Source of the DNA: a virus
DNA: 50,423 nt
Virus record (IMG/VR): IMGVR_UViG_3300025030_000147
Span: 1-50,423 of that record
Reading direction: 5' to 3' (one strand)
Shown: piece by piece, positions 5,939 to 48,514 of the stretch
Numbering within the stretch: the stretch's first letter is position 1
Layout: each line of letters opens with the position of its first letter
Position numbers and translations under genes: made by a program
Notes under the pieces: model-generated
What the model saw: only the letters and a program-made list of their open reading frames with translations
What the model was told of the DNA's origin: nothing
Database searches by the model: none

Positions 5939-7581
5939 GCGCTGACCCTCCCCATTGCTGAATTGACCCGTGCGGCCAGCGCCTCAGCGTCGGCCCGCCC
6001 GAGTGTCTGTGCTGTCAGAATATCCACCCCGAAGGTATGGTAGAACCGGCGGTGCAGCACGCGGTCCGGCTCGCCCAGGTACCGGCGCCATCCGCCGTAC
6101 CAGCTTATTGCTTCCCGCAACACCGTCTGCGCCCGCTGTCGTTCCTCATGCTGGTTGGCGGCCCCCTTGGCTACAGGGTACGGCTTGCCGGCCATCTGTA
6201 GGCCGCGCATCACCGCGTCAGGGTGGCGGTCTATCCGCTCTATCTCCCCGCGCATCGCCGCCAGCGTCTCGGCGTCCAGCTCACACAGGTCACCATCGAC
6301 CATCTCCGGTGCGGTCCGGCCGGCGGGTACCGGCACCCACCCACAGAATGGGCAGGCCGGATACACAGCCTCGTAGGGCGCCAGGCAGATGGGATTCAGA
6401 CAGTTGCGCAACGGGATAAGCCCATCATCCGTCTTGCTGCCCGACCGCTTTTCCTTGCGGTCCAGCGTCCAGGTGCGAGGGCGGTCTGGTAAACCGTGAC
6501 GCAGCACGTTGCCTACGTGGTCTATGATGATCGCCCGCTCCTTGCCCTCCAACAGCCGCAGAGCACGACCAAACTGCTGGATATACAGTCCGTAAGACTG
6601 CGTTGCGCGAGCCATTGTGACCACCTCGACTGCCGGGATGTCCACCCCCTCGCCGAACAGATCTACGTTGACGAGCTGCAGCAACTCACGGCGCTCGAAC
6701 CGGCGCATGATCTCCACACGCATCTTGTCGGGGGTCTGTGCGGTCACGACCTCGGCCGGTACACCCGCCTGGTTGAACATCGCGGAGAATTGGGTGGCGG
6801 TTTCCACGTCCGGCGCAAAGGTGATCCCGAGGGCGCCCGGGGCGATCCGCAAGTAGTGGTCTACCACATGGCCCATTACGGTGGATTTCTGCGTCTTGAG
6901 AGCGAGCTGGCCGCGCACATAGTCGCCATCCGCCCCGGTCGCTACGCTGGACAGGTCCAGATCGCTCGGTGGGCAGAAGATACGGTACTCAGTGAGGTAC
7001 CCCGCGGTGATCAGGTCGCGCATCCCCGGTCCCTCAACCATGAAGTCGAACAGCCCATCAGCGTGTCGCCCGAGCCCCTTACCGTCCGCGCGCTCCGGTG
7101 TGGCGGTCACACCCAGGCCGCGAGCGTTGGGGAACATGGCGACCGCTTTGCCCCATTGGTTGTTCTTAATGAGGTGATGCGATTCATCTAGTACCCAAAG
7201 CGTCACCTGGTTCGCCCAATGAGCCAATTTGTCGGCCCGGCTGACCAACGTACCGACCCCTGCCACCGCACACGGCGCCTGGGGGTCGTAGAAGTCACGA
7301 CCGAATTTCTGGATGTGCGTGGACACTATATTGCGAACCACATTACTGGGTGCAATGATACGATGCCTGATGCCATAACTACCTAAAGTACGGGACATTT
7401 GACCAACAAGCTCTTGGCGATGCGCGATTGCGACAGAGTGGCCCTGGTGGTTTGACAGAGCCTTAGCAAACAGGACTGTCTTGCCAGATCCGGTCGGGCT
7501 CACCACCAGTCCATTGAGTGCGCCGAGCCACCCGGCGTACAGTTCTATCAGTGCTTTGTCTTGGTAGGGTCGAAGTATCAT
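5935..7581 (-). CDS. SF2 DEAD/DEAH-type DNA helicase
   Basis: A 548-aa superfamily 2 helicase. It has LRPYQ (Q-motif region) at residues 3-7, Walker A SPTGSGKT at 28-35, DESHH for Walker B, and late motifs FGEGVDIP and QQFGRALR. A C-terminal zinc ribbon is suggested by CLNPICLAPY and CPFCG. It likely unwinds or remodels DNA in phage replication. I take the ATG at 7581 as the start: the longer TTG start at 7590 lies within the predicted -10 box and could not be on the transcript. No Shine-Dalgarno sequence is present, consistent with a leaderless mRNA. First gene of the leftward operon. Confidence 0.9.
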   Translation of the reverse strand: MILRPYQDKALIELYAGWLGALNGLVVSPTGSGKTVLFAKALSNHQGHSVAIAHRQELVGQMSRTLGSYGIRHRIIAPSNVVRNIVSTHIQKFGRDFYDPQAPCAVAGVGTLVSRADKLAHWANQVTLWVLDESHHLIKNNQWGKAVAMFPNARGLGVTATPERADGKGLGRHADGLFDFMVEGPGMRDLITAGYLTEYRIFCPPSDLDLSSVATGADGDYVRGQLALKTQKSTVMGHVVDHYLRIAPGALGITFAPDVETATQFSAMFNQAGVPAEVVTAQTPDKMRVEIMRRFERRELLQLVNVDLFGEGVDIPAVEVVTMARATQSYGLYIQQFGRALRLLEGKERAIIIDHVGNVLRHGLPDRPRTWTLDRKEKRSGSKTDDGLIPLRNCLNPICLAPYEAVYPACPFCGWVPVPAGRTAPEMVDGDLCELDAETLAAMRGEIERIDRHPDAVMRGLQMAGKPYPVAKGAANQHEERQRAQTVLREAISWYGGWRRYLGEPDRVLHRRFYHTFGVDILTAQTLGRADAEALAARVNSAMGRVSA

Positions 7582-7589
7582 GGGTCGCA

Positions 7590-7618
7590 AACATACAGAC
7601 AGTTGGCGGTACTGTCAA
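7590..7618 (-). promoter_or_regulatory. Leftward promoter of the replication operon (leaderless geometry)
   Basis: On the minus strand, TTGACA (7618-7613), a 17-base spacer and TATGTT (7595-7590). Eight bases separate the -10 box from the helicase ATG at 7581, so transcription should begin within a base or two of the start codon. The spacer contains the 16-base sequence shared with the divergent promoter. Confidence 0.6.
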
Positions 7619-7681
7619 TACTCAGATTATTATAAATTTATAACGCAAATAATTGTTGACACCTGCGCCAACTGTCTGTAT
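7593..7681. promoter_or_regulatory. Inverted pair of 16-base operator-like sequences in divergent promoters
   Basis: Positions 7593-7608 and 7666-7681 are perfect inverted copies of CGCCAACTGTCTGTAT. In each promoter the copy starts four bases after the -35 box, fills the rest of the spacer and enters the -10 box. A repressor bound there would block both promoters equally. The 57-base A+T-rich centre could let the two sites be bridged. The binding protein is not identified. Confidence 0.7.
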
Positions 7682-7684
7682 TGT
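7656..7684 (+). promoter_or_regulatory. Rightward promoter of the early operon
   Basis: TTGACA (7656-7661), a 17-base spacer and TATTGT (7679-7684), a good sigma-70 type arrangement. Transcription should start near 7691, leaving about 30 bases of leader that carries GGAGG before the ATG at 7722. The spacer is nearly the same sequence as in the leftward promoter, which suggests shared control. Confidence 0.65.
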
Positions 7685-7721
7685 CCCTCAACACTTAACC
7701 ACCACACGGAGGATATGACAG

Positions 7722-8123
7722 ATGAAACGAGTCCTACAGAGAGTTAAAAACGAAACCTACTATTTTGTAGGTGGTGAAAGAGCGGTAGGTGTTCCTACCG
7801 GTATCGAGGGCAACCTGACCGGTATCCGGGGCGACCTGTCCGGTATCCGGGGCGACCTGTCCGGTATCGAGGGCGACCTGTCCGGTATCTGGGGCAACCT
7901 GACCGGTATCGAGGGCAACCTGTCCGGTATCCGGGGCGACCTGTCCGGTATCCGGGGCGACCTGACCGGTATCTGGGGCAACCTGACCGGTATCGAGGGC
8001 AACCTGACCGGTATCCGGGGCGACCTGACCGGTATCGAGGGCGACCTGTCCGAAGCAGAATTAACCGACGAAGAACGCGCAGCAGGCGTGAACATCACGG
8101 ATCTCATCAAGGAGGAAGTATAG
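7722..8123 (+). CDS. Heptapeptide-repeat (GIxGxL) phage protein
   Basis: First gene of the rightward operon, GGAGG nine bases before the ATG. After about 26 N-terminal residues come twelve uninterrupted heptads of the form G-I-x-G-(N/D)-L-(T/S), with x being E, R or W. The tail reads SEAELTDEERAAGVNITDLI. Repeats with this C-terminal signature occur in hypothetical proteins of other tailed phages; function is not established there. The regular heptads suggest a solenoid or beta-roll. Being first behind a regulated promoter argues for an early role rather than a virion part. Confidence 0.75.
   Translation: MKRVLQRVKNETYYFVGGERAVGVPTGIEGNLTGIRGDLSGIRGDLSGIEGDLSGIWGNLTGIEGNLSGIRGDLSGIRGDLTGIWGNLTGIEGNLTGIRGDLTGIEGDLSEAELTDEERAAGVNITDLIKEEV
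7800..8051 (+). repeat. Twelve 21-base coding repeats
   Basis: Twelve tandem 21-base units, each encoding one GIxGxLx heptad. Units differ mainly in the codon for the third residue (GAG, CGG or TGG) and in AAC versus GAC and ACC versus TCC. The near-identity at DNA level implies recent expansion or ongoing slippage and recombination within the gene. Confidence 0.9.
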
Positions 8124-8125
8124 GT

Positions 8126-9097
8126 ATGAACGACAAAACAATCAGTATCACAGTCAGTGGCGCATTACCGGAAGTAGAAGAGATGTTTCGCAGGTTGGCG
8201 AGGGGAGGGGTGGAGCACAGGTTTACCGCCGAGGATGTGAAAGAGTTTGCGGGGATCAACGGGGTAGATTACAAGTCGGCGCGTGACGCTCTCTCAAACG
8301 CAAGGCTTACCCCTGTGACCACGCCGCCGAGCTTTGACCAGTTCGCTGCTGGCGTGGTGCAACAGTTCGCGGCTGGCACCGGGTTGCCCGAGTGCATTTC
8401 CATGACGGGCGAGCAGCCTGGCCCGACCGTAGACGCAGCGGCTGTATTCGCACCGCCGCAGATCGTACCGGAATTGTCCGGTAGCTGGAACCCCGAAACG
8501 GGTCATGTGCCGCTGGCGCCCCAGGCACCGACCATCCCCGCCGCGGTGCAGCCCACAATTCCGCCCGCACCCGCCGCTGCGCCGGACGGAACCATCGCAG
8601 CAGTTGTGGCAGCCTGTCATGCTTTGCCCGATGCACCCGCCGCCAACGTGGAACTCGACGGTGAGGGTCTGCCGTGGGACCGCAGGATTCACGCCAGCAC
8701 CAAGACCCGCCGCCAGTCCGACAACACCTGGAAGCTGGCGAGAGGCGTTGATGAGGCGTTGGTCGAGCAGGTAAAAGGCGAACTGCGGGTTGCCATGTCG
8801 GCTGGCGCACCGCCCGCACCCGCCGCTGCGCCCCAGGCACCGACCGCACCCGCCGCTGCGCCCCAGGCACCGCCCGCACCCGCCGCTGCGCCCCAGGCAC
8901 CGCCCGCACCCGCCCCGACCACCTTTGCTGAACTGCTCCAGGCGGTCACAGCGATGCAGGCGGCGGACAAGATCGCGTTCACTCAGATCGTAGACGTGTG
9001 CAAGAAGCACGGGTTCGCCAACCTGCCGCTGGTCGCCGCCCGGCCCGACATGATCCCCACCGTGTACGCCGACCTTGTAGCCATAGCGGGGGTGTAG
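8126..9097 (+). CDS. Phage replication-associated hypothetical protein with Pro/Ala linkers
   Basis: A 323-aa protein with AAGGAGG upstream. The N-terminal 70 residues look folded. A central segment, DGEGLPWDRRIHAST followed by TWKLARG, is a motif I associate with hypothetical proteins of phage replication modules. Long Pro/Ala stretches, including the repeat APAAAPQAP, separate it from a C-terminal domain starting TTFAELLQAVTAMQ. The layout suggests two or three small domains on flexible linkers, perhaps binding DNA or other replication proteins. No enzyme motif is visible. Confidence 0.7.
   Translation: MNDKTISITVSGALPEVEEMFRRLARGGVEHRFTAEDVKEFAGINGVDYKSARDALSNARLTPVTTPPSFDQFAAGVVQQFAAGTGLPECISMTGEQPGPTVDAAAVFAPPQIVPELSGSWNPETGHVPLAPQAPTIPAAVQPTIPPAPAAAPDGTIAAVVAACHALPDAPAANVELDGEGLPWDRRIHASTKTRRQSDNTWKLARGVDEALVEQVKGELRVAMSAGAPPAPAAAPQAPTAPAAAPQAPPAPAAAPQAPPAPAPTTFAELLQAVTAMQAADKIAFTQIVDVCKKHGFANLPLVAARPDMIPTVYADLVAIAGV
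8809..8912 (+). repeat. Pro/Ala-coding tandem repeat
   Basis: Imperfect copies of a unit encoding roughly APAAAPQAPP lie in tandem in the gene at 8126-9097, giving a flexible linker. A related but distinct repeat (QAPAAAPPVY) lies in the ssDNA-binding-protein gene at 10664-11536. The sharing suggests parallel expansion or exchange of linker DNA. Confidence 0.75.
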
Positions 9098-9098
9098 C

Positions 9099-9443
9099 GT
9101 GGCACACAAAGCAATCCTTATAACGGGGCCTGTAGGTTGCGGTAAGAGCCGGTTGGCAAGGGAGCTTGCTGAGTGGTTGGGTGGGACTATTGCGGAAATG
9201 GATGATCACGAACTCATGGGGCATTTTGCCTTTGCAGCGGAGCCCAACGTGGTCATCGTGGAGGAATGCAGGAATCTCGACGCCATCAAAAGAATCGTGA
9301 CCAGCGACATGATTCGGTGTGAGAGGAAGGGTGAAAACCCCAAAGAAATTCCCGTTCCTCACATTATCTGCACGATGCTTGAGCCGCCGGACGAGATTGG
9401 TCGACGGTTCATCCACATCCCTTTGACCGGGGGCACCCGATGA
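9099..9443 (+). CDS. Small P-loop ATPase, 114 aa
   Basis: Begins with GTG two bases after the previous stop. The N-terminus has Walker A GPVGCGKSRLA (about residues 10-20), and a Walker B-like stretch NVVIVEEC follows near 50. At 114 aa it is only a minimal P-loop core, so it may act with a partner. Its place between the linker protein and the DUF2800 nuclease argues for DNA replication or recombination. The end overlaps the next start by four bases (ATGA). Confidence 0.75.
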   Translation: MAHKAILITGPVGCGKSRLARELAEWLGGTIAEMDDHELMGHFAFAAEPNVVIVEECRNLDAIKRIVTSDMIRCERKGENPKEIPVPHIICTMLEPPDEIGRRFIHIPLTGGTR

Positions 9444-10576
9444 CACACAGCCGCTTATCCCCAAGCAAGGCGGTCACATGGGTGAACTGCCCGGGGTCCG
9501 TCAACCTGTCCGCGCTCTTTCCCGACTCAGGGCCGAGCGAGGCGGCTGCGGAGGGTACTGCCTCGCACCATGTAGCGTCCGAGGTGCTGCTGTGCGAGCG
9601 CCCGGCGCCCAAGGTGGGCGACAAGGCACCCAACGGTGTGATCCTCAACATGGAGATGGTTGAGAGCGCCTGGGTGTACATCGATGTGGTTCGGCGGGTC
9701 AGTCTGCGCCAGCCGATGCGGGTAGAGCAGCACATGCAGATCCCCCGTATCCACCCCGAGGTCCACGGAACGCCGGACTGCTGGTTTTACAGTCCGGCGC
9801 AGCGCGAGCTGCACGTGTTCGACTACAAGTACGGGTTCGGCATCGTAGAGCCCTACATGAACTGGCAGCTCATCACCTACGCTATCGGCGCACTGGAATT
9901 GTCCGGCATCGACGGCCACGAAGACCATCAGACCACTGTGGTCCTGCACATCGTCCAACCGCGACCCTTTCACGTTGCCGGCGCACACCGGGAATGGCGG
10001 GTACTGGCGAGCGACCTGAGAGGTCATGCCAACGGTCTGCGCTTCGCCGCGGAAAAAGCCCTCGGACCGAACCCCGAGGTGTCCTGCGGTAAACACTGCC
10101 AGTATTGCAGCGCGCGTCATGCCTGTCCGAGTCTGCAACGCGCCGTGATGGACGCCGCGGATTACGCACTGGCGGCTCGACCCGAGGTGCTGGACCCCGC
10201 AGCAATGGGTCTGGAATACCGCACCCTGGAGCGCATCGAGGCGCTGCTTAAAGCTCGCAAGTCGGGCCTCGCCGCCAGCATGGAAGCACTCATCAAAGCT
10301 GGTACGGCAATCCCCGGCTGGCTGTTGCAGCAGGGCAATGGTCGGGCAGCATGGAACAAACCGGCGGCTGAGATATTCGCCCTGGGGGATCTCATGGGTC
10401 TGGACCTGAGAGCCGCCCCCGAGGCGATCACGCCCGCCGCAGCGATCAAGGCTGGCATACCCAAGGAGGTAGTGCAGGCATTCAGCGAAACGCCGATCAG
10501 CGGTACCAAGCTGGTCGCATCGGAAAGCACACTGGCATCGCGGGTATTCCGCGCTGAGATGCCGTCACTGGTCTGA
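9440..10576 (+). CDS. DUF2800 PD-(D/E)XK nuclease, Cas4/RecB-like
   Basis: A 378-aa protein matching the phage DUF2800 family. It starts LSPSKAVTWVNCPGSVNLS and then EGTASHHVASE, the usual opening of these nucleases. The catalytic core is seen in GTPDCWFY and VFDYKYGFG. A cysteine cluster CGKHCQYCSARHAC could hold an iron-sulfur centre, as in Cas4 and AddB relatives. It probably processes DNA ends in recombination or replication, next to the ssDNA-binding protein. Length is normal for the family. Confidence 0.85.
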   Translation: MTHSRLSPSKAVTWVNCPGSVNLSALFPDSGPSEAAAEGTASHHVASEVLLCERPAPKVGDKAPNGVILNMEMVESAWVYIDVVRRVSLRQPMRVEQHMQIPRIHPEVHGTPDCWFYSPAQRELHVFDYKYGFGIVEPYMNWQLITYAIGALELSGIDGHEDHQTTVVLHIVQPRPFHVAGAHREWRVLASDLRGHANGLRFAAEKALGPNPEVSCGKHCQYCSARHACPSLQRAVMDAADYALAARPEVLDPAAMGLEYRTLERIEALLKARKSGLAASMEALIKAGTAIPGWLLQQGNGRAAWNKPAAEIFALGDLMGLDLRAAPEAITPAAAIKAGIPKEVVQAFSETPISGTKLVASESTLASRVFRAEMPSLV

Positions 10577-10621
10577 GGCATGAGTCTCGCTGACGACTAC
10601 ATAGACCACCATTTATCAAAA

Positions 10622-10640
10622 AGCCTGCCCTTTGCAGGCT
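10622..10640 (+). terminator. Hairpin between the DUF2800 and ssDNA-binding genes
   Basis: AGCCTGC (10622-10628), loop CCTTT, GCAGGCT (10634-10640), preceded by five A but not followed by a U run. It lies just upstream of the ribosome site of the DUF2815 gene. It may act as a weak attenuator or as an mRNA-stability element that helps raise expression of the abundant ssDNA-binding protein. Confidence 0.5.
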
Positions 10641-10663
10641 ACTTACCACGGAGGCAACAACAC

Positions 10664-11536
10664 ATGGCACTCAAAGGCGATAATCTCGTACTGTCCAACA
10701 ACGCGATCATCCTGTGGGATGGCATCACCCGGCCCGAACTGAAAGACGATGGTAAGGGCGGCAAATTCAACCAGTACAGCCTCAAGGTCGCGGTCCCGGC
10801 CAACGACCCGGTTGTGGCTGAAATCCAGCAGATCGCCACCGTCGCGCTGCAGAACGACAGCAAGTTCCGAGGCACCCTTCCCCCGGGCGGCTCCTGGCCG
10901 ATCCTCCCCGTGGACCCCTCGCAGTTCGAGGGCAAGCTGCAGGGCTACGTGGCGTTCAACGCCAAGTCCAACCGCGCTGTGCAGGTTTTCAACGTGAACA
11001 ACCAGGAACTCGACCCGATGCAGTACGCCACCCAGCTCTATCCTGGCTCGACGGTGCAGGTGCTGGTCCACGCGTTCAGCTTCGATAACAAATCCAAGGG
11101 GATCGCGCTCGGCTTGGACGGTATCCGCATAGTGGACGCCACCAGCCCCCGCCTACCGGTCGGCGGTGTGGACGCAGGCGCAGTATTCGGCACCGCCCCG
11201 GTGGCAGGCGGCCAGGCACCTGCCGCTGCACCGCCTGTCTACCAGGCACCCGCCGCTGCACCGCCCGTCTACCAGGCGCCCGCCGCTGCACCGCCCGTCT
11301 ACCAGGCACCCGCCGCTGCACCGCCCGTCTACCAGGCACCCGCCGCTGCACCGCCTGCCGCCCCGGGCGCGGTCGGCCTGCCGCCGGGTGTTCAGCCCGC
11401 ACCGGATGTCCTCAATCCGCCGGCTGCTCCCGCCCGCCAGATGACCCCCGCAGCAAACGGCGCCACCTATGAGCAGATGATCGCTGCGGGCTGGACCGAC
11501 ACCACGCTGATCCAGCACGGCATGATGATGGCTTAA
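10664..11536 (+). CDS. DUF2815 single-stranded DNA-binding protein
   Basis: The ATG at 10664 has GGAGG nine bases upstream; the in-frame start at 10580 would add residues encoded by the hairpin and is less likely. The N-terminal 180 residues (SNNAIILWDGITRPELKDDGKGGKFNQ) match DUF2815, a phage OB-fold ssDNA-binding family. The C-terminal half is a Pro/Ala linker with the repeat QAPAAAPPVY, and the end is MTPAANGATYEQMIAAGWTD. It should coat single strands during replication with the polymerase and primase/helicase. Confidence 0.85.
   Translation: MALKGDNLVLSNNAIILWDGITRPELKDDGKGGKFNQYSLKVAVPANDPVVAEIQQIATVALQNDSKFRGTLPPGGSWPILPVDPSQFEGKLQGYVAFNAKSNRAVQVFNVNNQELDPMQYATQLYPGSTVQVLVHAFSFDNKSKGIALGLDGIRIVDATSPRLPVGGVDAGAVFGTAPVAGGQAPAAAPPVYQAPAAAPPVYQAPAAAPPVYQAPAAAPPVYQAPAAAPPAAPGAVGLPPGVQPAPDVLNPPAAPARQMTPAANGATYEQMIAAGWTDTTLIQHGMMMA
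11213..11355 (+). repeat. 30-base repeat encoding QAPAAAPPVY
   Basis: Four full 30-base units and a partial fifth, nearly identical at DNA level, encode a ten-residue linker repeat in the ssDNA-binding protein. Copy number could change by slippage, altering linker length without affecting the OB-fold. Confidence 0.9.
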
Positions 11537-11553
11537 CAAGGAGGTAACACACG

Positions 11554-11730
11554 ATGTTCAAGTTCAATTTCGACCGAGTGGTGATGATTAAGTGCAGCGA
11601 AGAGATGGGTGAGGTAATCGGACGGAGCGAGTACGCTGCTGACGAAAACCGCTACCTGATCCGTTACATGGCGGCGGACGGTCGCGCTGTCGAACAGTGG
11701 TGGCCTGAAAGCGCCCTGTCTGAACCCTAA
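11554..11730 (+). CDS. Small phage protein, 58 aa
   Basis: AAGGAGG lies ahead of the ATG at 11554. The product has two basic/acidic beta-like segments: FDRVVMIKCSEEMGEVIGRSEY, then YLIRYMAADGRAVEQWWPES. The pattern GxVxGR...YLIRY...WW suggests a compact SH3-like beta-barrel, as seen in several small phage proteins. Function unknown. It lies between the ssDNA-binding protein and polymerase genes, separated from the next gene by a hairpin. Confidence 0.65.
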   Translation: MFKFNFDRVVMIKCSEEMGEVIGRSEYAADENRYLIRYMAADGRAVEQWWPESALSEP

Positions 11731-11741
11731 ACCATCCACCC

Positions 11742-11767
11742 GTGGGGCGGCTCGCACAGCGCCCCAC
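11742..11767 (+). terminator. G+C-rich hairpin in the early operon
   Basis: GTGGGGCG (11742-11749) pairs perfectly with CGCCCCAC (11760-11767) around a ten-base loop. There is no U tract, so it is not a standard intrinsic terminator. It may protect the upstream mRNA or pause polymerase. Confidence 0.4.
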
Positions 11768-11793
11768 TTACCCCACCACTGGAGGACCACCAA

Positions 11794-11946
11794 ATGTACT
11801 GGATCTACTTCATCGGAGCATTGTTCACCGCCGGGTACATCGAGCGCGACAAAGAGGGGGTTTTCTCTGACCTCTGGACTGTTGCGTTTTGGCCCGCATA
11901 TTGGGGTAAAAAGCTGCGCGGAGAGCAGCCACCGGAGGGTATCTAA
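11794..11946 (+). CDS. Small hydrophobic protein, 50 aa
   Basis: GGAGG precedes the ATG at 11794. Residues 1-15 (MYWIYFIGALFTAGY) and about 26-38 (DLWTVAFWPAYWG) are hydrophobic, separated by a charged ERDKEG turn. This could make a two-segment membrane hairpin. It ends TAA directly followed by the ATG of the next gene. Function unknown. Confidence 0.55.
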   Translation: MYWIYFIGALFTAGYIERDKEGVFSDLWTVAFWPAYWGKKLRGEQPPEGI

Positions 11947-12240
11947 ATGCTCCACACACTATCCGCCCGAGCGTTCCTTATGGCCGGTGAGGGCGCTCCG
12001 CTGCCCGAGGCAATACGTTGGGTCACCCGTAACCTCCCCGCCAATTTGCGACCCTACTACGCGCGCCAGATCCACTACAACGTCTGCTGCGATCAGCACC
12101 GTGTGGTCAAGCTGATAGGTCGGGTGGCGGTGGTGCAGTGCCAGTGTTGCGGTCGAGGTGAGCAGATCCCGCAGCCGAGGGCCGATGAGGTGATGGATTT
12201 TAGAGCGAGGGTATCGGAGGCGTTATATGCAACAGCTTGA
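11947..12240 (+). CDS. Hypothetical protein with zinc-knuckle-like cysteines, 97 aa
   Basis: Starts immediately after the upstream stop. The middle carries NVCCDQH and QCQCCGRGEQ, which could form one zinc site. The N-terminal half reads as helices (FLMAGEGAPLPEAIRWVTRNLP). The next gene begins inside its last codons. It is probably a small accessory protein of the replication module. No family recognised. Confidence 0.6.
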   Translation: MLHTLSARAFLMAGEGAPLPEAIRWVTRNLPANLRPYYARQIHYNVCCDQHRVVKLIGRVAVVQCQCCGRGEQIPQPRADEVMDFRARVSEALYATA

Positions 12241-14526: not shown

Positions 14527-14532
14527 ATTGTA

Positions 14533-14561
14533 TTGACAAAATATCAAGTGTAAGGTAGATA
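14533..14561 (+). promoter_or_regulatory. Early promoter after the polymerase gene
   Basis: TTGACA (14533-14538), a 17-base spacer and TAGATA (14556-14561). It begins seven bases after the polymerase stop and drives the run of small genes to 16786. An ATG lies exactly seven bases after the -10 box at 14569, and a second, Shine-Dalgarno-preceded ATG lies at 14581, so leaderless and leadered starts compete. Confidence 0.65.
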
Positions 14562-14580
14562 TACCTGCATGGAGGTAAGC

Positions 14581-14826
14581 ATGAAAATAGGGACCGAAGG
14601 ACACAAAGAATGGCTCAACACTTTAAAGGTGGGGGATCGTGTTGCCGTATTCCAACTCTGCCCTGAAAAAATGGTTTATCAAGACACGGTGGCGAAAATA
14701 ACACCCACCCGTCGAATCGAGCTATCCAAGGGTAGTACCTTTCACCCTACAGGATGGATCAGGGGAGCTAACGCACCGTGCTATAGAGATAGGCATATCC
14801 GACCCTATAAGGAGATCCAGCCATGA
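14581..14826 (+). CDS. Hypothetical early protein, 81 aa
   Basis: I chose ATG 14581 because GGAGG lies five bases upstream; the ATG at 14569 (four residues longer) sits where a leaderless transcript would begin and is a real alternative. The product reads MKIGTEGHKEWLNTLKVGDRVAVFQ, then VAKITPTRRIELSKGSTFH, the look of a small beta-barrel (KOW or SH3-like). It ends four bases into the next gene. No function recognised. Confidence 0.7.
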   Translation: MKIGTEGHKEWLNTLKVGDRVAVFQLCPEKMVYQDTVAKITPTRRIELSKGSTFHPTGWIRGANAPCYRDRHIRPYKEIQP

Positions 14827-15029: not shown

Positions 15030-15070
15030 CCGCGCCAGCATCGCAGCGCGGATAACGTAACGGGGGAAGT

Positions 15071-29884: not shown

Positions 29885-29913
29885 ATTGTACATATTAATG
29901 AGCGACAAGTCAA
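29885..29913 (-). promoter_or_regulatory. Promoter of the sheath-tube transcript
   Basis: On the minus strand, TTGACT (29913-29908), a 17-base spacer and TACAAT (29890-29885). It exactly fills the gap after the stop of the BppU-like gene. Transcription should start near 29878, and a leader with AAGGAGGG runs to the sheath ATG. The -35 box and spacer start resemble the promoters at 39096-39124 and 43140-43168. Confidence 0.65.
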
Positions 29914-39124: not shown

Positions 39125-39127
39125 GTC

Positions 39128-40962: not shown

Positions 40963-41171
40963 TGCACCTGACACTTTTTACTGCAGCGCCGATGCTCTAT
41001 GAAGCAGAGCATACAGGTGTAGACTTTCGGACCCTGGCGAAGTATCTGAATCAAGGTGTAAATTGCAGTGAGTATGTAGACCCAAATCTGCCACTCAATG
41101 CCAAAAAAGCTGGTCGCTGTGATAAGCGCCGGGGGTACTACTTTCACACTCTCGGTAACGACTTCACGCAT
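40959..41171 (-). CDS. Holin-like membrane protein, 70 aa
   Basis: ATG 41171 with GGGGGTG upstream. MREVVTESVKVVPPALITATSFFGIEWQIWVYILTAIYTLIQILRQ has one or two hydrophobic segments separated by few residues, and the tail is Cys-rich (YTCMLCFIEHRRCSKKCQ). The VPPALITATSFFG and ILTAIYTLIQI style resembles class II (T7-type) holins. It precedes the endolysin gene, the usual holin position. Confidence 0.78.
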   Translation of the reverse strand: MREVVTESVKVVPPALITATSFFGIEWQIWVYILTAIYTLIQILRQGPKVYTCMLCFIEHRRCSKKCQVQ

Positions 41172-41186
41172 CAAACACCCCCAATA

Positions 41187-42851
41187 TTATTCATGATCAT
41201 TCAAAAAAGACTCAAGGCGGTCCATCAGATCGTCCACCCGCGAACGCGCCTGCTGCTGACCGGCGGGGGCAGGGGCAGCCTCGGCTACAGCCGCCTGTGT
41301 CCACGGGGCGTTGACGAACCCCTTGTAGAGCGACTTATTCTTTTCGATGTTTGCCGATGCACTGGACCCGTTCAGATCCCTCGCCTCGCGTTCTAGGTTG
41401 CTGACCCCGATCTCGATGTTCTCGCGGCGGGCCTTTGCGGTCTTAGCCGGGTCGATGTCGGGCGGCGGTGTGCCGATCCAGTTTTTCTTGAGCCAGGCGG
41501 CGCGCAGGCGGGGGTCGGACCACCCTGGAGCGACGATACGTCCGGCGGCAATCTCGCCCGACAGCCACATTTCCACGCACGGGTCCAGATAGTCGCTCGC
41601 CATCTCGTTGCGCCAGATCTGGCAGACGCGCCAGAACAGCAGCAGGGTGGCGCGGGAGGCCGAATAGTTCTGGTTGAACTTCATCAGCACGACTTCCAGC
41701 GGAATGCTCAAGCTGGAGGACAGGTGGCTGGCAAACGCATCCACAAAGGTGTCGAACTTATCGCCCGGTGCCGAGTTGGGGAACGGTTTAAGGGTGGACC
41801 CTTTGGTGAGGTTGGCAACGACCATTGACCCCGGTGTGTTACTGGTCGCCTCGGGTATCCTTGACACCGCCGTGACGCCCGGGTACAATTGTTCAACTGG
41901 CTCGGATGGTGTCACCTGACTGACCGGCGGCGCGGCAGGGCCGGCTCCCTGACCGGTCAGGATGCCCTCGAACACGTTGACAGCATCCTCGTCCTCGGAC
42001 GGCTCGATGAACGCCACGAAACCAGCTTGGTTGATCGCCTTTTTGATACTGGCCGCCGAGAAATCGGTGATGTTCTCGAACTCCTGAATTGCGTGCGCCA
42101 GGCGGGAGTATCCGCGGCCTTGACCGGCGTACTCGGGGCGGAACCCGTGCAGCATGAAGATCCTGCCGGACTTGTCGGTGGCGGGGATGGTCACAGGGGT
42201 GAAATTGCCCTCAGTGTCCCTCACCCAAATCTTGTAGCCCGTCTCTCTACCGTTGGCGTCCCGCTCGATGCCGTCCTTTCCGAGTTGGAAACCCCAACTG
42301 GAGGTGTAAGCATCGCCGCGCACCTGGTCGGGGTCAATGAACTCCCACTGCAGGGGATTCTGGAGCCCGGGGTCGTTACTGTAGAAGAACCGCACGAAGA
42401 TGTCGTTATCGCGGTGCTGGAAAAGCTGGTAGAGGTTCTGTGACTGGTACCAGGTCAGGTTCCCTGCGCGGTGCTGTTTCTTGTCGCGCGCCCACAGGTC
42501 GAACCGCTCACCGACATCGTGCGCCCACTCGGCGGCACGCTCGGGAGTGATGCCTAGGATCTCGCAACAGGGGGTAAGTTCTAGGCGCAGACCGGTATCG
42601 GCCACGGTGTCTGCGAACCGCTCCACGATGGCACGGGCCTGCATGGAGTCGTTCATGGCAGCGCGGGCGTTCCGGCGCGCCTCGGTGTGGCTCACGTAGG
42701 TGGTGCGACCGCTGGCTGACAGACCGGCGGGCCACTTGCTGCCCCCGCGGTCGCGGATGGTGAAGGTCGATGCATCGTCATACGCCTGGGGCGCTGCGGG
42801 AGTGCCCGCCCAACCAGACATTTTGCCGGCGAACCAGGAAATGATGCTCAT
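41187..42851 (-). CDS. Portal protein (lambda gpB-like)
   Basis: A 554-aa portal with typical landmarks: SISWFAGKMSGW at the start, HTEARRNARAAMNDSMQARAIVERFADTVADTGLRLEL, WEFIDPDQVRGD, GRGYSRLAHAIQEFENITDFSAASIKKAINQAG and LEVVLMKFNQNYSASRATLLLFWRV. It forms the dodecameric vertex used by the terminase. The start overlaps the DUF6148 gene (ATGA). Confidence 0.93.
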   Translation of the reverse strand: MSIISWFAGKMSGWAGTPAAPQAYDDASTFTIRDRGGSKWPAGLSASGRTTYVSHTEARRNARAAMNDSMQARAIVERFADTVADTGLRLELTPCCEILGITPERAAEWAHDVGERFDLWARDKKQHRAGNLTWYQSQNLYQLFQHRDNDIFVRFFYSNDPGLQNPLQWEFIDPDQVRGDAYTSSWGFQLGKDGIERDANGRETGYKIWVRDTEGNFTPVTIPATDKSGRIFMLHGFRPEYAGQGRGYSRLAHAIQEFENITDFSAASIKKAINQAGFVAFIEPSEDEDAVNVFEGILTGQGAGPAAPPVSQVTPSEPVEQLYPGVTAVSRIPEATSNTPGSMVVANLTKGSTLKPFPNSAPGDKFDTFVDAFASHLSSSLSIPLEVVLMKFNQNYSASRATLLLFWRVCQIWRNEMASDYLDPCVEMWLSGEIAAGRIVAPGWSDPRLRAAWLKKNWIGTPPPDIDPAKTAKARRENIEIGVSNLEREARDLNGSSASANIEKNKSLYKGFVNAPWTQAAVAEAAPAPAGQQQARSRVDDLMDRLESFLNDHE

Positions 42852-43132
42852 CGGCTGTGCCTCCGCAGGTTCATGTTGATCAGACCACGGCCATAGAGTC
42901 GATTGGTGAGCCTGTTGATTTGGGATTCGATCAGGGAAATTTCGCGGGAGAGTTCTTCGGGCGACCGCCTCTTGGTCATCTGTTTTCCCTCTCCACTATC
43001 AAAACTGTAGGTTTCCACCTCAGAATGAGAAAGCGCAGCCAGATACGCCGTGTTGGCGGCGTCTAGCTGCGCTTGTTTGGCTGCGATCTGTGCCGCAATC
43101 TGCGCTTTCTCTGTGGTGGACAGGTAGCTCAT
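42848..43132 (-). CDS. DUF6148-like head protein (gpW-position), 94 aa
   Basis: Product STTEKAQIAAQIAAKQAQLDAANTAYL, SEVETYSFDSGEGKQMTKRRSPEELSREI and GRGLINMNLRRH matches small helical proteins between terminase and portal in lambda-like heads (DUF6148). It probably joins the head-tail connector. No Shine-Dalgarno sequence; the ATG at 43132 lies seven bases after the predicted -10 box, pointing to leaderless translation. Confidence 0.8.
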   Translation of the reverse strand: MSYLSTTEKAQIAAQIAAKQAQLDAANTAYLAALSHSEVETYSFDSGEGKQMTKRRSPEELSREISLIESQINRLTNRLYGRGLINMNLRRHSR

Positions 43133-43139
43133 GGCGCGC

Positions 43140-43168
43140 AGGGTACAGTGCGCTCATGAGAAAGTCAA
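43140..43168 (-). promoter_or_regulatory. Promoter of the portal transcript (leaderless geometry)
   Basis: TTGACT (43168-43163), a 17-base spacer and TACCCT (43145-43140) on the minus strand. Seven bases separate the -10 box from the ATG at 43132. The -10 box is weak (TACCCT), but the whole site is similar to the capsid promoter at 39096-39124, which supports it. Confidence 0.55.
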
Positions 43169-43184
43169 GAAATTAATTAAACAT

Positions 43185-43319
43185 CTACCAGTTGATCTTC
43201 ATGTCGATCTTGCGACCCTTCCATAACAGATAAAGGAAAAGTACCCCAAGTGCAATAAGGAACACAATCACGGTGCAACCAAAAACTTGCAGCAGAGTGA
43301 TAACCTTTTCGGGTATCAT
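43185..43319 (-). CDS. Small membrane protein, 44 aa
   Basis: Reads MIPEKVITLLQ, then one strong hydrophobic helix (VFGCTVIVFLIALGVLFLYLLW), then the basic tail KGRKIDMKINW. It is a single-pass membrane peptide lying between the RHH/zinc genes and the portal promoter. A holin accessory or exclusion role is possible; nothing in the sequence decides it. Confidence 0.55.
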   Translation of the reverse strand: MIPEKVITLLQVFGCTVIVFLIALGVLFLYLLWKGRKIDMKINW

Positions 43320-43324
43320 TACCG

Positions 43325-43477
43325 TCACGACGCCTCCCTTGTAGCCGCCGCGGCACGCATGATCGCCGCCTTGCGCCTAGCCTGGCAGTCCTCTACCATC
43401 ACCATGAACTTCATCATCAACCCGTTGTATCCAATACACCCGCATGTCGACATATCCCGCCACGTTTTACGCTCCAT
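43325..43477 (-). CDS. Small Cys/Met-rich protein, 50 aa
   Basis: ATG 43477 with AGGAGG seven bases upstream; longer readings in the same frame are Arg/Ser-rich and non-coding in look. MERKTWRDMSTCGCIGYNGLMMKFMVMVEDCQARRK, ending AAAATREAS. The cysteines CGC and C could hold metal. It overlaps the RHH gene by 11 bases. Function unknown. Confidence 0.5.
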   Translation of the reverse strand: MERKTWRDMSTCGCIGYNGLMMKFMVMVEDCQARRKAAIMRAAAATREAS

Positions 43478-43781
43478 CACCACACCTCCTGACGAATTTT
43501 CCGTTGATGTGCGGTATCGTGCCGCACTGGTACGCCGCCCCCGACTGAGTCGACCCGCAGTACGGACAGACGGGCGGTATGGGTGTCTCTTCCGGCTCAA
43601 TGCCGCTGATACACCGGTCCTTGACGTACTCGCTGATCGACATCTTGCGCCGGAATGCGCGCCGCCGGAACTCTTCCTTTTCATGGGTGGTCACCCTGAT
43701 CTGGAGTTGCGAGTCGGCGGTATCATCCTTGCTGGTTCCTGACGGACGACCTGCCCCCTTTCTTGCACCGCCGCTAGGCAC
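43467..43781 (-). CDS. Ribbon-helix-helix protein with C-terminal zinc ribbon, 104 aa
   Basis: GTG start, GGAGG upstream in the HNH gene. SQLQIRVTTHEKEEFRRRAFRRKMSISEYVKDRC fits a ribbon-helix-helix DNA-binding domain like those of Arc/MobC-type regulators. A zinc ribbon follows (CPYCGSTQSGAAYQCG, RRCG). The basic N-terminus (GARKGAGRPSG) resembles those of small DNA-binding phage proteins. It could regulate late transcription; inference only. Confidence 0.65.
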   Translation of the reverse strand: MPSGGARKGAGRPSGTSKDDTADSQLQIRVTTHEKEEFRRRAFRRKMSISEYVKDRCISGIEPEETPIPPVCPYCGSTQSGAAYQCGTIPHINGKFVRRCGDGA

Positions 43782-44376
43782 TGTTCACCTCCAATTTGTT
43801 GTGTTTACTCATATTTTCGGATGCGGTTATCACTTGAAGATTCCAAGGTACGTGCAACCCGCTTACGTTTTCACCCTGTAGCGGAACTATGTGATCTACA
43901 TGGTACTGTACCCCCAAAGCATCGCTCAACATTTTTGAATAGAGATAAAAAGCCTCTATCTGAACTAAATGATCTTCCGTAAGCCATTTAGGGGTACGTT
44001 GTATCTTAGATAATTGATATTTACGGGTGTAGTGCAACATTTTATGAGAGTTTTTACTACGCCACTCACGATTAACTTCAAGTATCCTATCCTTATTTTC
44101 CTTGTATATTTTCTGATGACGTTCTTTTTCTTTATCCTTGTTTCTGGCGTACCACTCTTTTTGGGCTTTTAACTGCTTTTCTTTATTCTTAGCAGTCCAC
44201 GCATCGCTGGCAGCTTTTCTTTTTATTTTACAACGCCTTGCATCAATTTCTTTTTTCTTTTCCTTGTTATTAGAAGCCCACGCTTTATTTCTAGCACGTA
44301 GGCAAGTTTTACATGTGCCGTTTTTGTAGACGTTTTCAGGAACCAAAGGATGACCGTTTACGCAGTGTGTTTTCAT
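43774..44376 (-). CDS. HNH homing endonuclease 1
   Basis: A 200-aa protein. The N-terminal zinc module is CVNGH...CKTC (CX2GH, then CX2C), a long basic helical linker follows, and the C-terminal HNH core is YHVDHIVPLQGENVSGLHVPWNLQVITASENMSKHN. The gene is visibly A+T-rich against its neighbours, a sign of insertion. It has its own leaderless-type promoter. It is similar in build to the HNH gene at 46338-47078, and the two flank the large terminase gene. Confidence 0.9.
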   Translation of the reverse strand: MKTHCVNGHPLVPENVYKNGTCKTCLRARNKAWASNNKEKKKEIDARRCKIKRKAASDAWTAKNKEKQLKAQKEWYARNKDKEKERHQKIYKENKDRILEVNREWRSKNSHKMLHYTRKYQLSKIQRTPKWLTEDHLVQIEAFYLYSKMLSDALGVQYHVDHIVPLQGENVSGLHVPWNLQVITASENMSKHNKLEVNSA

Positions 44377-44383
44377 GGATTAC

Positions 44384-44412
44384 AAAATAATTTATTTTAG
44401 ATTTAATGTCAA
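44384..44412 (-). promoter_or_regulatory. Promoter of HNH gene 1 (leaderless geometry)
   Basis: TTGACA (44412-44407), a 17-base spacer and TATTTT (44389-44384) on the minus strand. Seven bases separate the -10 box from the ATG at 44376, with no ribosome site. It fills the gap after the large terminase stop. Confidence 0.55.
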
Positions 44413-44421
44413 TACTTATTT

Positions 44422-46341
44422 TCACCGAGGACCTGCACCTTGTTTCGTCATCATGTCGAGGACCATGATATGATTGATCTGCTGGATCTCGATATCCGAT
44501 GCGCCCGCCTGTTTGGCAGCCATTCGCATAGCGTTCACCTTGCTATCCAGGTACACGTCGCCAGCACATAGGGCGTACACGCGGCAGTCCAGCGCCTCAT
44601 TACGACGCCCCCCTGCGTGGAAACTCCCATCGACGCGCTTTTCCTCCGCAGCAAGCTGAACAAAGTATTTTTCTGCGCGGTCACGGGGGAAATTGCAAAA
44701 GCCAGGGCGCTGCGGCTCCACGTCCCTACGTTGGATCTGCAGGTTCGAGTAGGTCCGGCTTTTGTAGTAGTGGGTGGATATGTCGTAGAAGGTCACGTCG
44801 CCGGCGCGGTTACTGCGGACAGCACGATAGCGGATGAAGTCGTGGGGGCCGGCCTCGTCGCCAGTTTCATCACGCCGTTTCTTGAGCGCCCCCACCCCCT
44901 TGATAGGAAAGGTATTTTGCCACCGGCTTGTGAACGCATACACGATGTCCACAAGGTTGCCGTCACCGCTGTCGATAAAGATCAGACTGACCGGGCGACC
45001 CTGTAACATCAGACCACCCTTGAGCGCCCATTGATGCATGTCCTCCCAGGCGCCCTCGAACGCGCTCTTACCGGTATCCCCCTCGAACACCTTGTAGCCG
45101 AGCGACCAGGTGCGGAAACCGGCGCCGTGACCGAGTATTTCTGCCTCCAAGCGCGGTGGATTGAGCGGGTCGCCGGCAGAGCCCCGTTGCACGTCCACGC
45201 CCATTGTGATGAACAGCACGCCGTCCGGCACCTCGCCCTCACGATACTCGCCACGTAGCTCGATGATCTTCTCTACCTTGGGCCTGCTGCCGATCTCCTT
45301 GTAGGGCATACCGAGGTACAGGTTTGTGAACGACCTCATCTTAGCAGGATCGTCCTTGGCATCCAGATACTTCTGATATAGCTCATACCAGGAGAGCATA
45401 CCCGGGGCGCTGTACATCGAGCTGATCCAGTAGCTCCGGTGGTTCTTGTTGTTCGGAGTGGCGGTCGCCTCCCAATAGCCAGCGGCGAACATCTCCGCTT
45501 TTTGGTGATTATGGATCTGGCCGGCACAGTGGGGGCACTCGTACCAAACCTTGTAGAGATGGCCGCCCTTCATCTCATGCCGCAGGTTGCGGAACTCCAA
45601 GTGGTCGAACACGCCGCAGCACGGACAGGGCACCTTGAACTTGCGCCGGTCGCCCATCTCATAGCGGTCGCGGATCAAACTGGCTTCATGTGTGGTGGGT
45701 GTGGAAAACTCCATGATCTTCTTGCGTGCACCCCAGGCGGCGGTTCGACCGTGGGCGACATCCAACCAGTTACCCTCGCCGGTGGTGAGCAGAGCAGGGG
45801 CACCGTCGACCTCATCGAGTACCAGGACGCGCTTGCTGTCGGACCGCAGACTGCTCGCGCTGCGGCTGGACGCCATGTTGAGGGTACCACCAGCGTACTC
45901 CTTACTGAAAGTCTTATCCCCAGTGCGTCGGCTTTTAGAATTTTCGATCTGCGCGAAGATTTTGGGCCGCATCCCGATAGAGTCGATCAGCGGCTCCAGG
46001 CGTTTGGTAGCCCACTTCTCAAGCAGTTCCTCGTTGGCGCTCACGTACAGGATCTCAGCCGGCACGCAATCCATGAAATACGCGATAACGTTCTCCGCAC
46101 ACGCGGTCAGGCCCAACTGAACACCCTTCATCACGCTGACAATCTGAACGGGTGAGAAAGGGCTCATCGAATCCATCAGTTCCACCATATATGGGGTCTT
46201 AGCATTATCCCAAAAGCCCGGGAATGGCGTGTTGGTGGGCATAAGACGATGACCTTGTACATAGTCAGAGATTAGAGCGGGAGGAGCAGTGATAGGTTTA
46301 AGATTATTCTGTTCAAGCAGAAATTGGATGTCGGAAATCAT
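44422..46341 (-). CDS. Terminase large subunit (lambda gpA-like)
   Basis: A 639-aa terminase. Walker A is the deviant MKGVQLGLT (Lys-72 at the beginning, as in lambda gpA KSARVGYSK). Walker B is VLVLDEVDG (Asp-176, Glu-177). A zinc finger (CPCCG...CPHCAG) follows, and the nuclease half contains VDVQRGS and WQNTFPIKGVG. The ATG 46341 overlaps the stop of HNH gene 2 (ATGA). It cuts and packages DNA. Confidence 0.92.
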   Translation of the reverse strand: MISDIQFLLEQNNLKPITAPPALISDYVQGHRLMPTNTPFPGFWDNAKTPYMVELMDSMSPFSPVQIVSVMKGVQLGLTACAENVIAYFMDCVPAEILYVSANEELLEKWATKRLEPLIDSIGMRPKIFAQIENSKSRRTGDKTFSKEYAGGTLNMASSRSASSLRSDSKRVLVLDEVDGAPALLTTGEGNWLDVAHGRTAAWGARKKIMEFSTPTTHEASLIRDRYEMGDRRKFKVPCPCCGVFDHLEFRNLRHEMKGGHLYKVWYECPHCAGQIHNHQKAEMFAAGYWEATATPNNKNHRSYWISSMYSAPGMLSWYELYQKYLDAKDDPAKMRSFTNLYLGMPYKEIGSRPKVEKIIELRGEYREGEVPDGVLFITMGVDVQRGSAGDPLNPPRLEAEILGHGAGFRTWSLGYKVFEGDTGKSAFEGAWEDMHQWALKGGLMLQGRPVSLIFIDSGDGNLVDIVYAFTSRWQNTFPIKGVGALKKRRDETGDEAGPHDFIRYRAVRSNRAGDVTFYDISTHYYKSRTYSNLQIQRRDVEPQRPGFCNFPRDRAEKYFVQLAAEEKRVDGSFHAGGRRNEALDCRVYALCAGDVYLDSKVNAMRMAAKQAGASDIEIQQINHIMVLDMMTKQGAGPR

Positions 46342-47078
46342 ACCGCACCCGGAGCAAAACAATTATGCTTCTTTCTGTTTTCTTCGGCGGGAATTACTTG
46401 CAGATTCCAGGGCACATGCAGTCCGCTAACCAATTTACCGCGGAGCGGTACAATGTGGTCTACATGATGTTCTATGCCTGTTTCTTTTGTCATCTGTTTG
46501 GACGAAGTATAGAATGATCGTATTTCCAAGATTTGTTCATCGGTTAGCCACGATGGGGTACGGTTAGCCTTTGCTGCCTTACGTTTTGATACATTAGAAA
46601 GTATTTTGTCCATGTTTTCTTTGGCATATCTGACAGAATATGCTGATCTTGACTCTTTACATCTGGCATGACTCTTTCTATTTTGGGCATAAACTTTATC
46701 TCTATTTCTATCTATCCAAAGTTTTCTAGCAGCTTTAACTTTATCCGCATTTGATTTTCTGTATCTCTCAGAGGACTCCTTTACCTTTTCGGGATTATTT
46801 TGCCGATATTTTTTTCCTTTTTCAGCAGCTTTTTTTGGATCGTATCGTTTTCTTGCATTTTCTCTCGAACAGATCTTACACCCTCCTGATTTATTCACGT
46901 TTTCGGGGGTTCTTTCATGCCCACGAACACAGTGAGTTTTATGTGGAGAATCCTTTTTTAGATTATTTTTGTACCACTCTGCGGAGCGTATACGGGCACA
47001 GATTCTGCAATCGCCTTTGTTTGTAGTGGTTTCTGGTGTTCTTTTATGCCCCTGTTTACAGTGAGTTGACCGCACCAT
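46338..47078 (-). CDS. HNH homing endonuclease 2
   Basis: A 246-aa protein with two zinc modules (CKQGHKRTPETTTNKGDCRIC and CVRGHERTPENVNKSGGCKIC, each longer in full), a long basic linker (KKAAEKGKKYRQNNPEKV) and the HNH core (HHVDHIVPLRGKLVSGLHVPWNLQVIPAEEN). It lies between small and large terminase genes with a TAATG overlap upstream and an ATGA overlap downstream. A+T-rich, so probably an insertion. Similar to HNH gene 1. Confidence 0.9.
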   Translation of the reverse strand: MVRSTHCKQGHKRTPETTTNKGDCRICARIRSAEWYKNNLKKDSPHKTHCVRGHERTPENVNKSGGCKICSRENARKRYDPKKAAEKGKKYRQNNPEKVKESSERYRKSNADKVKAARKLWIDRNRDKVYAQNRKSHARCKESRSAYSVRYAKENMDKILSNVSKRKAAKANRTPSWLTDEQILEIRSFYTSSKQMTKETGIEHHVDHIVPLRGKLVSGLHVPWNLQVIPAEENRKKHNCFAPGAV

Positions 47079-47710
47079 TACCCGATCACCTCTGTACCTT
47101 GTTTCACCAGAAAGTCGTCCATCAGGCGTTTGATGTGCGCCAGGATGCGGACCACCTCCGTGTCTATCTTCTGCTCGACCTTCAACATTAGCTCCACATC
47201 CTCGACACCGAAGATGCCGGCGATATCGGCGGACAACTTGCCACCCAGAGTACGAAGCTCGTTGGAATCAATCTGATACAGCTTCCCGAACACGGTACGG
47301 ACCAGCGTGCGGTCGATCAGCTCCCCGCGCTTCGCCTCACGCTCGACGCGGATCTTGAGCAGACCTTCCAGCTTGTGCAGTTTGTCGATGTCGGACTTGG
47401 TGAGTTTTTTGAAATCGAGGTCGGCCGCCGCGGACAGGACCGCCTCGGCGTCGAAGCCCTCTGTGTCGTCTGAGGGCGGGGGGATCTCGCCGCGCTTAAT
47501 GGCGGCGACGGTGCGGGCGTTGACCGCGCAAGGGTGAAGGGGCTGCCCTTGACGAGCAGCGATCCATTCGGCGTTCTTTGGATCTTCCGTGTCAATCTTT
47601 CCGTCTACACGGTTCAGGTAGCCGCGCTGCACCAACGACTGTATCGCCTGCCGGCTGATGGCAGGTTTGATGAAGTTGGTGGCAAATTCTTTGACGGTAA
47701 GTTTCGGCAT
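47078..47710 (-). CDS. Terminase small subunit (Nu1-like)
   Basis: The 210-aa product starts MPKLTVKEFATNFIKPAISRQAIQSLVQRGYLNRVDG, a winged-HTH type start like Nu1 terminases, then a long helical region (DIDKLHKLEGLLKIRVEREAKRGELIDR). It recognises the packaging site. ATG 47710 has no ribosome site and lies seven bases after a -10 box (47723-47718), fitting leaderless translation. It ends in a TAATG overlap with HNH gene 2. Confidence 0.82.
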   Translation of the reverse strand: MPKLTVKEFATNFIKPAISRQAIQSLVQRGYLNRVDGKIDTEDPKNAEWIAARQGQPLHPCAVNARTVAAIKRGEIPPPSDDTEGFDAEAVLSAAADLDFKKLTKSDIDKLHKLEGLLKIRVEREAKRGELIDRTLVRTVFGKLYQIDSNELRTLGGKLSADIAGIFGVEDVELMLKVEQKIDTEVVRILAHIKRLMDDFLVKQGTEVIG

Positions 47711-47717
47711 GGCGGCG

Positions 47718-47747
47718 ATGCTACCACCGTGCAACAGATGTTGTCAA
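47718..47747 (-). promoter_or_regulatory. Promoter of the terminase transcript (leaderless geometry)
   Basis: TTGACA (47747-47742), an 18-base spacer and TAGCAT (47723-47718) on the minus strand. Seven bases then separate it from the ATG at 47710. It fills the 45-base gap after the upstream gene stop. Confidence 0.55.
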
Positions 47748-47755
47748 GCCTATTG

Positions 47756-48478
47756 CTACCTGCGGCCCGGTCGTCCCATCAGGGCACCCGCTGTCCTAGC
47801 CCACAGCTTATCGAGGCTAGTACGGCGGAAGTACGCCGCCCGAGCGTCCTTCATCCAGTGGTTCATGCCGGGCTGTCGGGCGCCTATGCCCTGCACCTGA
47901 ACCAGCTTGCGGTGCATCATGCCTTGGCGCCCCTGTTTCGGCCCGGCGATCTCTCCCTTGATAGCGGGCAGCTTGTAGAACTTCCCCTTGATGCGGACCA
48001 GGCGCTTTTCCTTCTTGCGGAACAGCATGGCGACGAAGTTTGCCAGCGATCCGCCGCGGGGCTTGTAGTCCTTAATCGTCACCACCTCCAGACCGGGCTT
48101 GAGGCGCACACTGGGCCTGATCTTGCCCGCCTGAGAGCCGCCACGCCCCGCCAGAGTGGCAAAACGCTTGCGGGCCTGGGGTACCCCCTTCTCTTGCTCG
48201 GTCCACCCGCTGAAACGCTCGGCGCCGACCGATCCCGCGTGGCTGACTTGCTGGTTGATGGGGGTGGTGCTGGACGCCTTCGTGTAGCGCATCCGGCTCG
48301 ATACGAACCCCGGGCTGCGGACGGTCATCGTCTTGTCGATCTGCTTGATGGACGACTCACGGGTGCCCCGGGCGTAGTGGTTGAGCATCTGGCTACACGC
48401 CACCCGCATCAGGCGGGGTTGCTTACCGTACCAGTTTCGTAGTCCGTTTACTTCGGTGAGGTCGATTTTGTAGTCCAT
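47756..48478 (-). CDS. Basic neck/tail-type protein, first late gene, 240 aa
   Basis: A 240-aa basic protein: VNGLRNWYGKQPRLMRVACSQMLNHYARGTRESSIKQIDKTMTVRSPGFVSSRMRYTKA, then GKFYKLPAIKGEIAGPKQGRQ. This resembles minor tail or neck proteins of the lambda gpZ type. ATG 48478 lies six bases after a -10 box and has no ribosome site. Its place before the terminase genes is unusual for a tail protein. Confidence 0.55.
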   Translation of the reverse strand: MDYKIDLTEVNGLRNWYGKQPRLMRVACSQMLNHYARGTRESSIKQIDKTMTVRSPGFVSSRMRYTKASSTTPINQQVSHAGSVGAERFSGWTEQEKGVPQARKRFATLAGRGGSQAGKIRPSVRLKPGLEVVTIKDYKPRGGSLANFVAMLFRKKEKRLVRIKGKFYKLPAIKGEIAGPKQGRQGMMHRKLVQVQGIGARQPGMNHWMKDARAAYFRRTSLDKLWARTAGALMGRPGRR

Positions 48479-48484
48479 GAGTGC

Positions 48485-48514
48485 TTAATACCACAGTGGG
48501 GGCGGTGGTGTCAA
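48485..48514 (-). promoter_or_regulatory. First late promoter (leaderless geometry)
   Basis: TTGACA (48514-48509), an 18-base spacer and TATTAA (48490-48485) on the minus strand. Six bases separate the -10 box from ATG 48478, so transcription should begin at the start codon itself. It heads the long leftward late region. Confidence 0.6.

Follow-up and report, generated by a model that had tools for sequence, protein, structure and literature searches.

Predicted leaderless starts at packaging operon leaders in an otherwise Shine-Dalgarno-led myophage and its diverged relatives

Promoter-start geometry in the phage genome

The window analyzed here is a virus record of 50,423 bases, without a host genome. 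It encodes a lambda-type large terminase and portal, a tail sheath, an NrS-1-like primase, and a T7-type replication gene set. Neither an integrase nor a phage RNA polymerase was found among the window proteins scanned, and an Rfam scan of the window returned nothing. At six genes, a promoter with good −35 and −10 boxes ends only a few nucleotides before the ATG (Table 1). One of these, between the terminase and portal genes, had been labeled DUF6148 in a preliminary description of this DNA. That label found no support, as the window protein had no Pfam or NCBIfam match at an E value of 0.01 in a scan of 12 family members. Five of the 12 members matched phrog_118 (head-tail adaptor), with an E value of 5.5e-4 for the window protein, and no credible PDB match to an adaptor fold was found by sequence. 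The large terminase gene lies between two related HNH genes: the one at 47078 is SD led and lies inside the operon, while the one at 44376 has its own predicted leaderless promoter.

TABLE 1 Genes with predicted leaderless starts, their promoters, and contrast promoters of Shine-Dalgarno (SD)-led genes in the window
Feature	Coordinates	Strand	Details
DEAD/ResIII helicase gene	5935..7581	-	ATG 7581, no SD; N-terminal LRPYQ fixes start
Helicase promoter	7590..7618	-	TTGACA (7613-7618), 17-nt spacer, TATGTT (7590-7595), gap of 8 nt to ATG 7581
Contrast promoter, SD-led gene 7722	7656..7684	+	TTGACA-17-TATTGT, gap 37
14569 promoter	14533..14561	+	TTGACA (14533-14538), spacer 17, TAGATA (14556-14561), gap 7, first ATG 14569
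85-aa gene	14569..14826	+	phrog_9662; in-frame starts ATG 14569 and ATG 14581
Contrast promoter, tail sheath gene	29885..29913	-	TTGACT-17-TACAAT, gap 27, AAGGAGG
Head-tail adaptor gene	42848..43132	-	Predicted leaderless; lambda gpW position, between terminase and portal
Head-tail adaptor promoter	43140..43168	-	TTGACT (43163-43168), spacer 17, TACCCT (43140-43145), gap 7, ATG 43132
HNH endonuclease 1 gene	43774..44376	-	Predicted leaderless start at 44376
HNH 1 promoter	44384..44412	-	TTGACA (44407-44412), spacer 17, TATTTT (44384-44389), gap 7, ATG 44376
Small terminase gene	47078..47710	-	phrog_57; predicted leaderless start
Small terminase promoter	47718..47747	-	TTGACA (47742-47747), spacer 18, TAGCAT (47718-47723), gap 7, ATG 47710
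First late gene	47756..48478	-	Weak match to phrog_4688, minor tail; predicted leaderless start
First late gene promoter	48485..48514	-	TTGACA (48509-48514), spacer 18, TATTAA (48485-48490), gap 6, ATG 48478
Contrast promoter, gene 48886	48833..48861	+	TTGACT-17-TATAGT, gap 24, AAGGAGG

Direct reading of the sequence reproduced what the preliminary description had reported for the six sites, namely, the boxes, the 17- to 18-nt spacers, the 6- to 8-nt gaps, and the strands. It likewise bore out that five of the six have no usable SD, while most other genes of the window have one. The sixth is the gene at 14569, where an SD lies behind the first ATG; a transcribed SD before the first ATG is absent at all six sites. 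All six genes start with AUG (6/6). The −10 box of the small terminase promoter has an upstream TGG and is thus an extended −10, and that of the first late gene also has an upstream TGG.

The arrangement is far more frequent at gene starts than expected by chance. A promoter of at least 10 bits lies 6 to 8 nt before seven of the 1,459 ATGs counted over the two strands, and six of these seven are called gene starts. Among called ATG starts, 6 of 64 show the geometry, compared to a mean of 0.21 and a maximum of 2 in 200 trials in which the upstream regions of all ATG-started genes were dinucleotide shuffled. The base at −1 is C at all six sites (6/6) versus 13 of 58 other starts, which fits an RNA polymerase that initiates on the A of the ATG, where pyrimidine is followed by purine. 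The six sites also rank among the strongest of the window in a scan with a sigma70 matrix, an E. coli model that may not be that of the phage's host. Intergenic same-strand sites scoring at least 10.4 and reading closely into genes include these six and three clear leadered promoters, at gaps of 24, 27, and 37 nt, which drive genes with strong SDs. The sheath and major head genes carry strong SD leaders. The top-scoring promoter-like site of the window (41861-41889, TTGACA-17-TACAAT) lies antisense within the portal gene and has no gene behind it.

Packaging genes of diverged relatives

Profiles of the terminase and of the portal were used to gather approximately 95 loci of diverged uncultivated phages. 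Iterated profiles identified the adaptor, small terminase, and first late gene orthologues, whose starts were set by alignment. After removal of near-duplicates, 71, 41, and 8 orthologues remained, respectively, and the geometry was scored as conserved where a promoter of at least 9 bits ended 5 to 9 nt before the start, with expectations taken from shuffles. By this measure it was present in 45 of 71 adaptor genes (1.4 expected), 16 of 41 small terminase genes (0.25 expected), and 3 of 8 first late genes (0.2 expected), and the spacers and flanks of orthologues that keep it were otherwise unalike. An SD is carried instead by 19 of the 81 gene-called adaptor orthologues, and some lack any promoter. 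The adaptor M1 is conserved in leaderless-type and SD-led members alike, so that the proteins of both classes begin at the same residue, which leaves no doubt about the start. In a tree of 81 portals, leaderless-type adaptors turn up in every main branch, with some clustering (21 changes versus a shuffled mean of 27.3). This suggests a state that is ancient or has often been regained, with repeated switches to SD leaders. Given these many changes, we claim neither one gain nor steady inheritance.

Two relatives deserve separate mention. In the cultured Shewanella phage SppYZU01 (KY622015), a distant relative of the window phage in which sites at 1078-, 2364+, and 5259+ were considered, similar geometry occurs at 1078- and at the gene just after the large terminase gene, and the gene before the large terminase gene has a gap of 10. 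An 8-kb contig from another sample (L063) encodes a portal 100% identical to that of the window over residues 41 to 554.

Gene specificity was assessed in a panel of 88 contigs with 1,599 genes called by a simple gene finder. Among SD-less genes whose promoter scored 11 bits or more, 58 had a gap of 5 to 9 nt, peaking at 6 to 7, and no other 5-nt bin held more than 4; gaps of SD genes with promoters were spread over the whole range. A pyrimidine occupied −1 in 83% of leaderless-class genes versus 44% of the rest of the panel. Where a promoter of at least 9 bits lay within 60 nt, the gap was 5 to 9 nt in 67 of 87 genes of the three packaging families versus 14 of 202 others (Fisher test, 2e-33, with relatedness ignored), and with alternative starts allowed the counts were 64 of 139 and 16 of 1,460, respectively. 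All 70 predicted leaderless starts were ATG (70/70). In control loci around helicase homologues, 7 of 747 genes showed the geometry, and promoters there peaked at 25 to 40 nt from the start. Outside the three packaging families, a promoter 6 to 8 nt before the ATG was also seen at several genes of 430 to 457 amino acids (L024 5239, L064 6628, and L117 10284), one of them an orthologue of the head maturation protease of the window.

This specificity bears on whether the phages merely reflect hosts rich in leaderless genes. Leaderless genes make up ~16% in some deltaproteobacteria and 20 to 40% in Actinobacteria and Deinococcus-Thermus (PMC3160421), and one portal relative sits in a Desulfobacteraceae metagenome-assembled genome (MAG). 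However, only ~1% of the other genes in the same contigs show the geometry, their promoters mostly driving leadered genes, and relatives of the replication module infect gammaproteobacteria, where few genomes have leaderless genes (PMC3160421). We consider host habit an unlikely explanation. An attempt to name the host from relatives yielded nothing in a first genome scan and five loci in MAGs in a second, which was too weak for the purpose.

Genome compaction alone could also bring real promoters in short gaps up against an ATG with no leaderless role, and many adaptor genes do begin within 20 to 70 nt of the upstream stop. Yet intergenic lengths are alike in the two classes, with a median of ~70 nt (up to 218 nt) for the leaderless class versus 78 nt for SD-led orthologues, so that there was room for a leader, and the effect is limited to a few families. 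On the intergenic lengths we rejected compaction as the sole cause, and we regard this explanation as a little less probable still than host habit.

A further alternative is that the motifs are regulator binding sites or packaging signals rather than promoters. TGTCAA/TTGACA palindromes do precede 11 of 58 small terminase genes versus 1 of 1,460 other genes. Against this, the 17- to 18-nt spacing, the −10 box, and the −1 pyrimidine are kept while spacers vary freely, and adaptor genes keep the promoter, mostly with no palindrome (3 of 86 have one), making it very improbable that the motifs are something other than promoters. The palindromes themselves, such as TGTCAACCGGTTGACA, overlap the −35 box of small terminase promoters (L079, L080, L136, L064, L130, and others) and are a possible regulator operator or packaging signal.

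The helicase, HNH 1, and 14569 starts

The preliminary description had considered repeated use of this geometry across replication, packaging, and mobile genes to be unusual and had proposed a scan of related phages, in which conserved ribosome sites at these starts would speak against leaderless mRNAs. At the packaging and head genes, the geometry is conserved across very diverged relatives, but at the helicase the scan gave the refuting outcome. Among 64 helicase orthologues, 36 have an SD, 23 have neither feature, and perhaps 5 are of the leaderless type, and in the nearest relative the helicase gene comes after a small SD-led gene. Since the relatives are mostly SD led or operon internal, we rejected the helicase site as a conserved feature and regard it as specific to the lineage of the window. 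The helicase promoter is one of a divergent pair, leaderless type on the helicase side and SD led on the 7722 side; each of the two promoters (7593-7681) is one arm of a 26-nt inverted repeat and has GCCAACTGTCTGTAT in its spacer. This repeat is likely a shared operator, albeit a putative one. An operator common to all six promoters was considered and rejected, as GCCAACTGTCTGTAT is confined to this divergent pair.

For HNH 1 and 14569, the evidence comes from the window only, and no match to the 14569 gene was found in five near relatives. ATG 14569 is followed by GGAGGTAAGC, with the SD GGAGGT, and an in-frame ATG at 14581, 12 nt downstream. Positions 14569 to 14583, ATGGAGGTAAGCATG, thus place a leaderless-type ATG, an SD, and a second in-frame ATG in immediate succession. 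Since GGAGGT precedes ATG 14581, translation could instead begin, SD led, at that second ATG; the promoter may supply a 12-nt SD-containing leader for that ATG, and the arrangement could yield two proteins differing by four residues. This makes 14569 a genuine candidate for a misassigned start codon. As an account of the sites in general, with SD-led starts lying downstream of those called, misassignment runs against the conserved adaptor M1 and the helicase LRPYQ motif, which begins at residue 3, and we think it has scarcely any chance of being correct.

Proposed mechanism and comparison with known systems

Altogether, we favor the interpretation, at a probability of roughly 0.85, that these sigma70-type promoters abutting ATGs produce true leaderless mRNAs, conserved at packaging operon leaders and sporadic elsewhere. 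We infer both the transcript ends and the mode of initiation from DNA geometry, statistics, conservation, and gene specificity. Host RNA polymerase would start on the first base of the start codon or within ~2 nt of it, and the first cistron of the resulting mRNA would be read by 5′-AUG recognition (by 70S ribosomes, or by 30S subunits with IF2 and fMet-tRNA), with downstream cistrons of the same transcript relying on SD sites or coupling. Five genes of the window would be expressed in this way, namely, those for the helicase, HNH 1, the head-tail adaptor, and the small terminase and the first late gene, and at 14569 a single transcript could provide for both in-frame ATGs. Transcripts arriving from upstream could also cover the adaptor and HNH 1 genes. 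Selection would maintain the arrangement at packaging and head operon leaders across a widespread clade of uncultivated myophages. Its role may be to hold low-copy proteins (terminase, adaptor, and homing nuclease) at low or late output, a purpose that we find reasonable as a prediction. A bolder proposal is that leaderless initiation is a deliberate layer of packaging control in this clade, with the small terminase, adaptor, and first late genes using a 70S or altered IF2/IF3 pathway favored late, separating packaging from capsid synthesis. We offer this as speculation and doubt that it is correct.

Leaderless phage mRNAs are usually seen as curiosities found in repressor genes or Thermus phages. 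If our interpretation is true, viruses choose the mode of initiation gene by gene, and leaderless and SD-led versions of one adaptor gene would be natural paired orthologues with which to test the purpose of leaderless initiation. It would also be a warning for gene callers that score starts by SD.

A TANNNT motif ~12 bp before the start is a published mark of bacterial leaderless genes (PMC3160421). The spacing and box of these TA-led genes are as in the window, but theirs are cellular, whereas the sites described here are gene specific in phages and have a good −35 box. Mapped leaders of Lactococcus cremoris are bimodal, with none of 4 to 14 nt (PMC10986495), the same two modes as in the phage gap distribution. 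In the Thermus phage phiYS40, most middle and late transcripts are leaderless, and infection is reported to raise IF2 and lower IF3 (Sevostyanova 2007 for the transcripts; both as cited in PMC3594737). Insofar as those citations describe it, the window phage resembles phiYS40, a lytic phage, in that several transcription units, late genes included, are predicted to lack leaders. It differs in that the phiYS40 host group has ~40% leaderless genes (PMC3160421) and in that leaderless-type starts in the window are confined to a few unit leaders, the sheath unit and other genes being SD led; a programme in which most middle and late transcripts are leaderless was not found in the window.

Our literature search found no paper on leaderless terminase or late genes. 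The gene order small terminase, large terminase, adaptor, portal is that of lambda Nu1-A-W-B. The lambda late genes form one unit read from pR′, whereas the small terminase and adaptor genes of the window each have their own promoter. Single leaderless phage genes are known, as had been stated earlier: lambda cI transcribed from PRM and PY54 cI and cro give leaderless mRNAs (PMC9031893, PMC4488713). In these, as in the window, the −10 box abuts the AUG, no SD is present, and the phage is otherwise SD led, but they are single regulatory genes of temperate phages, while those of the window are structural, packaging, and replication genes. Leaderless mRNAs of single phage genes and of one heat-loving kind of phage are thus already known; what is new here is a conserved, gene-specific predicted leaderless geometry at the packaging operons of otherwise SD-led phages.
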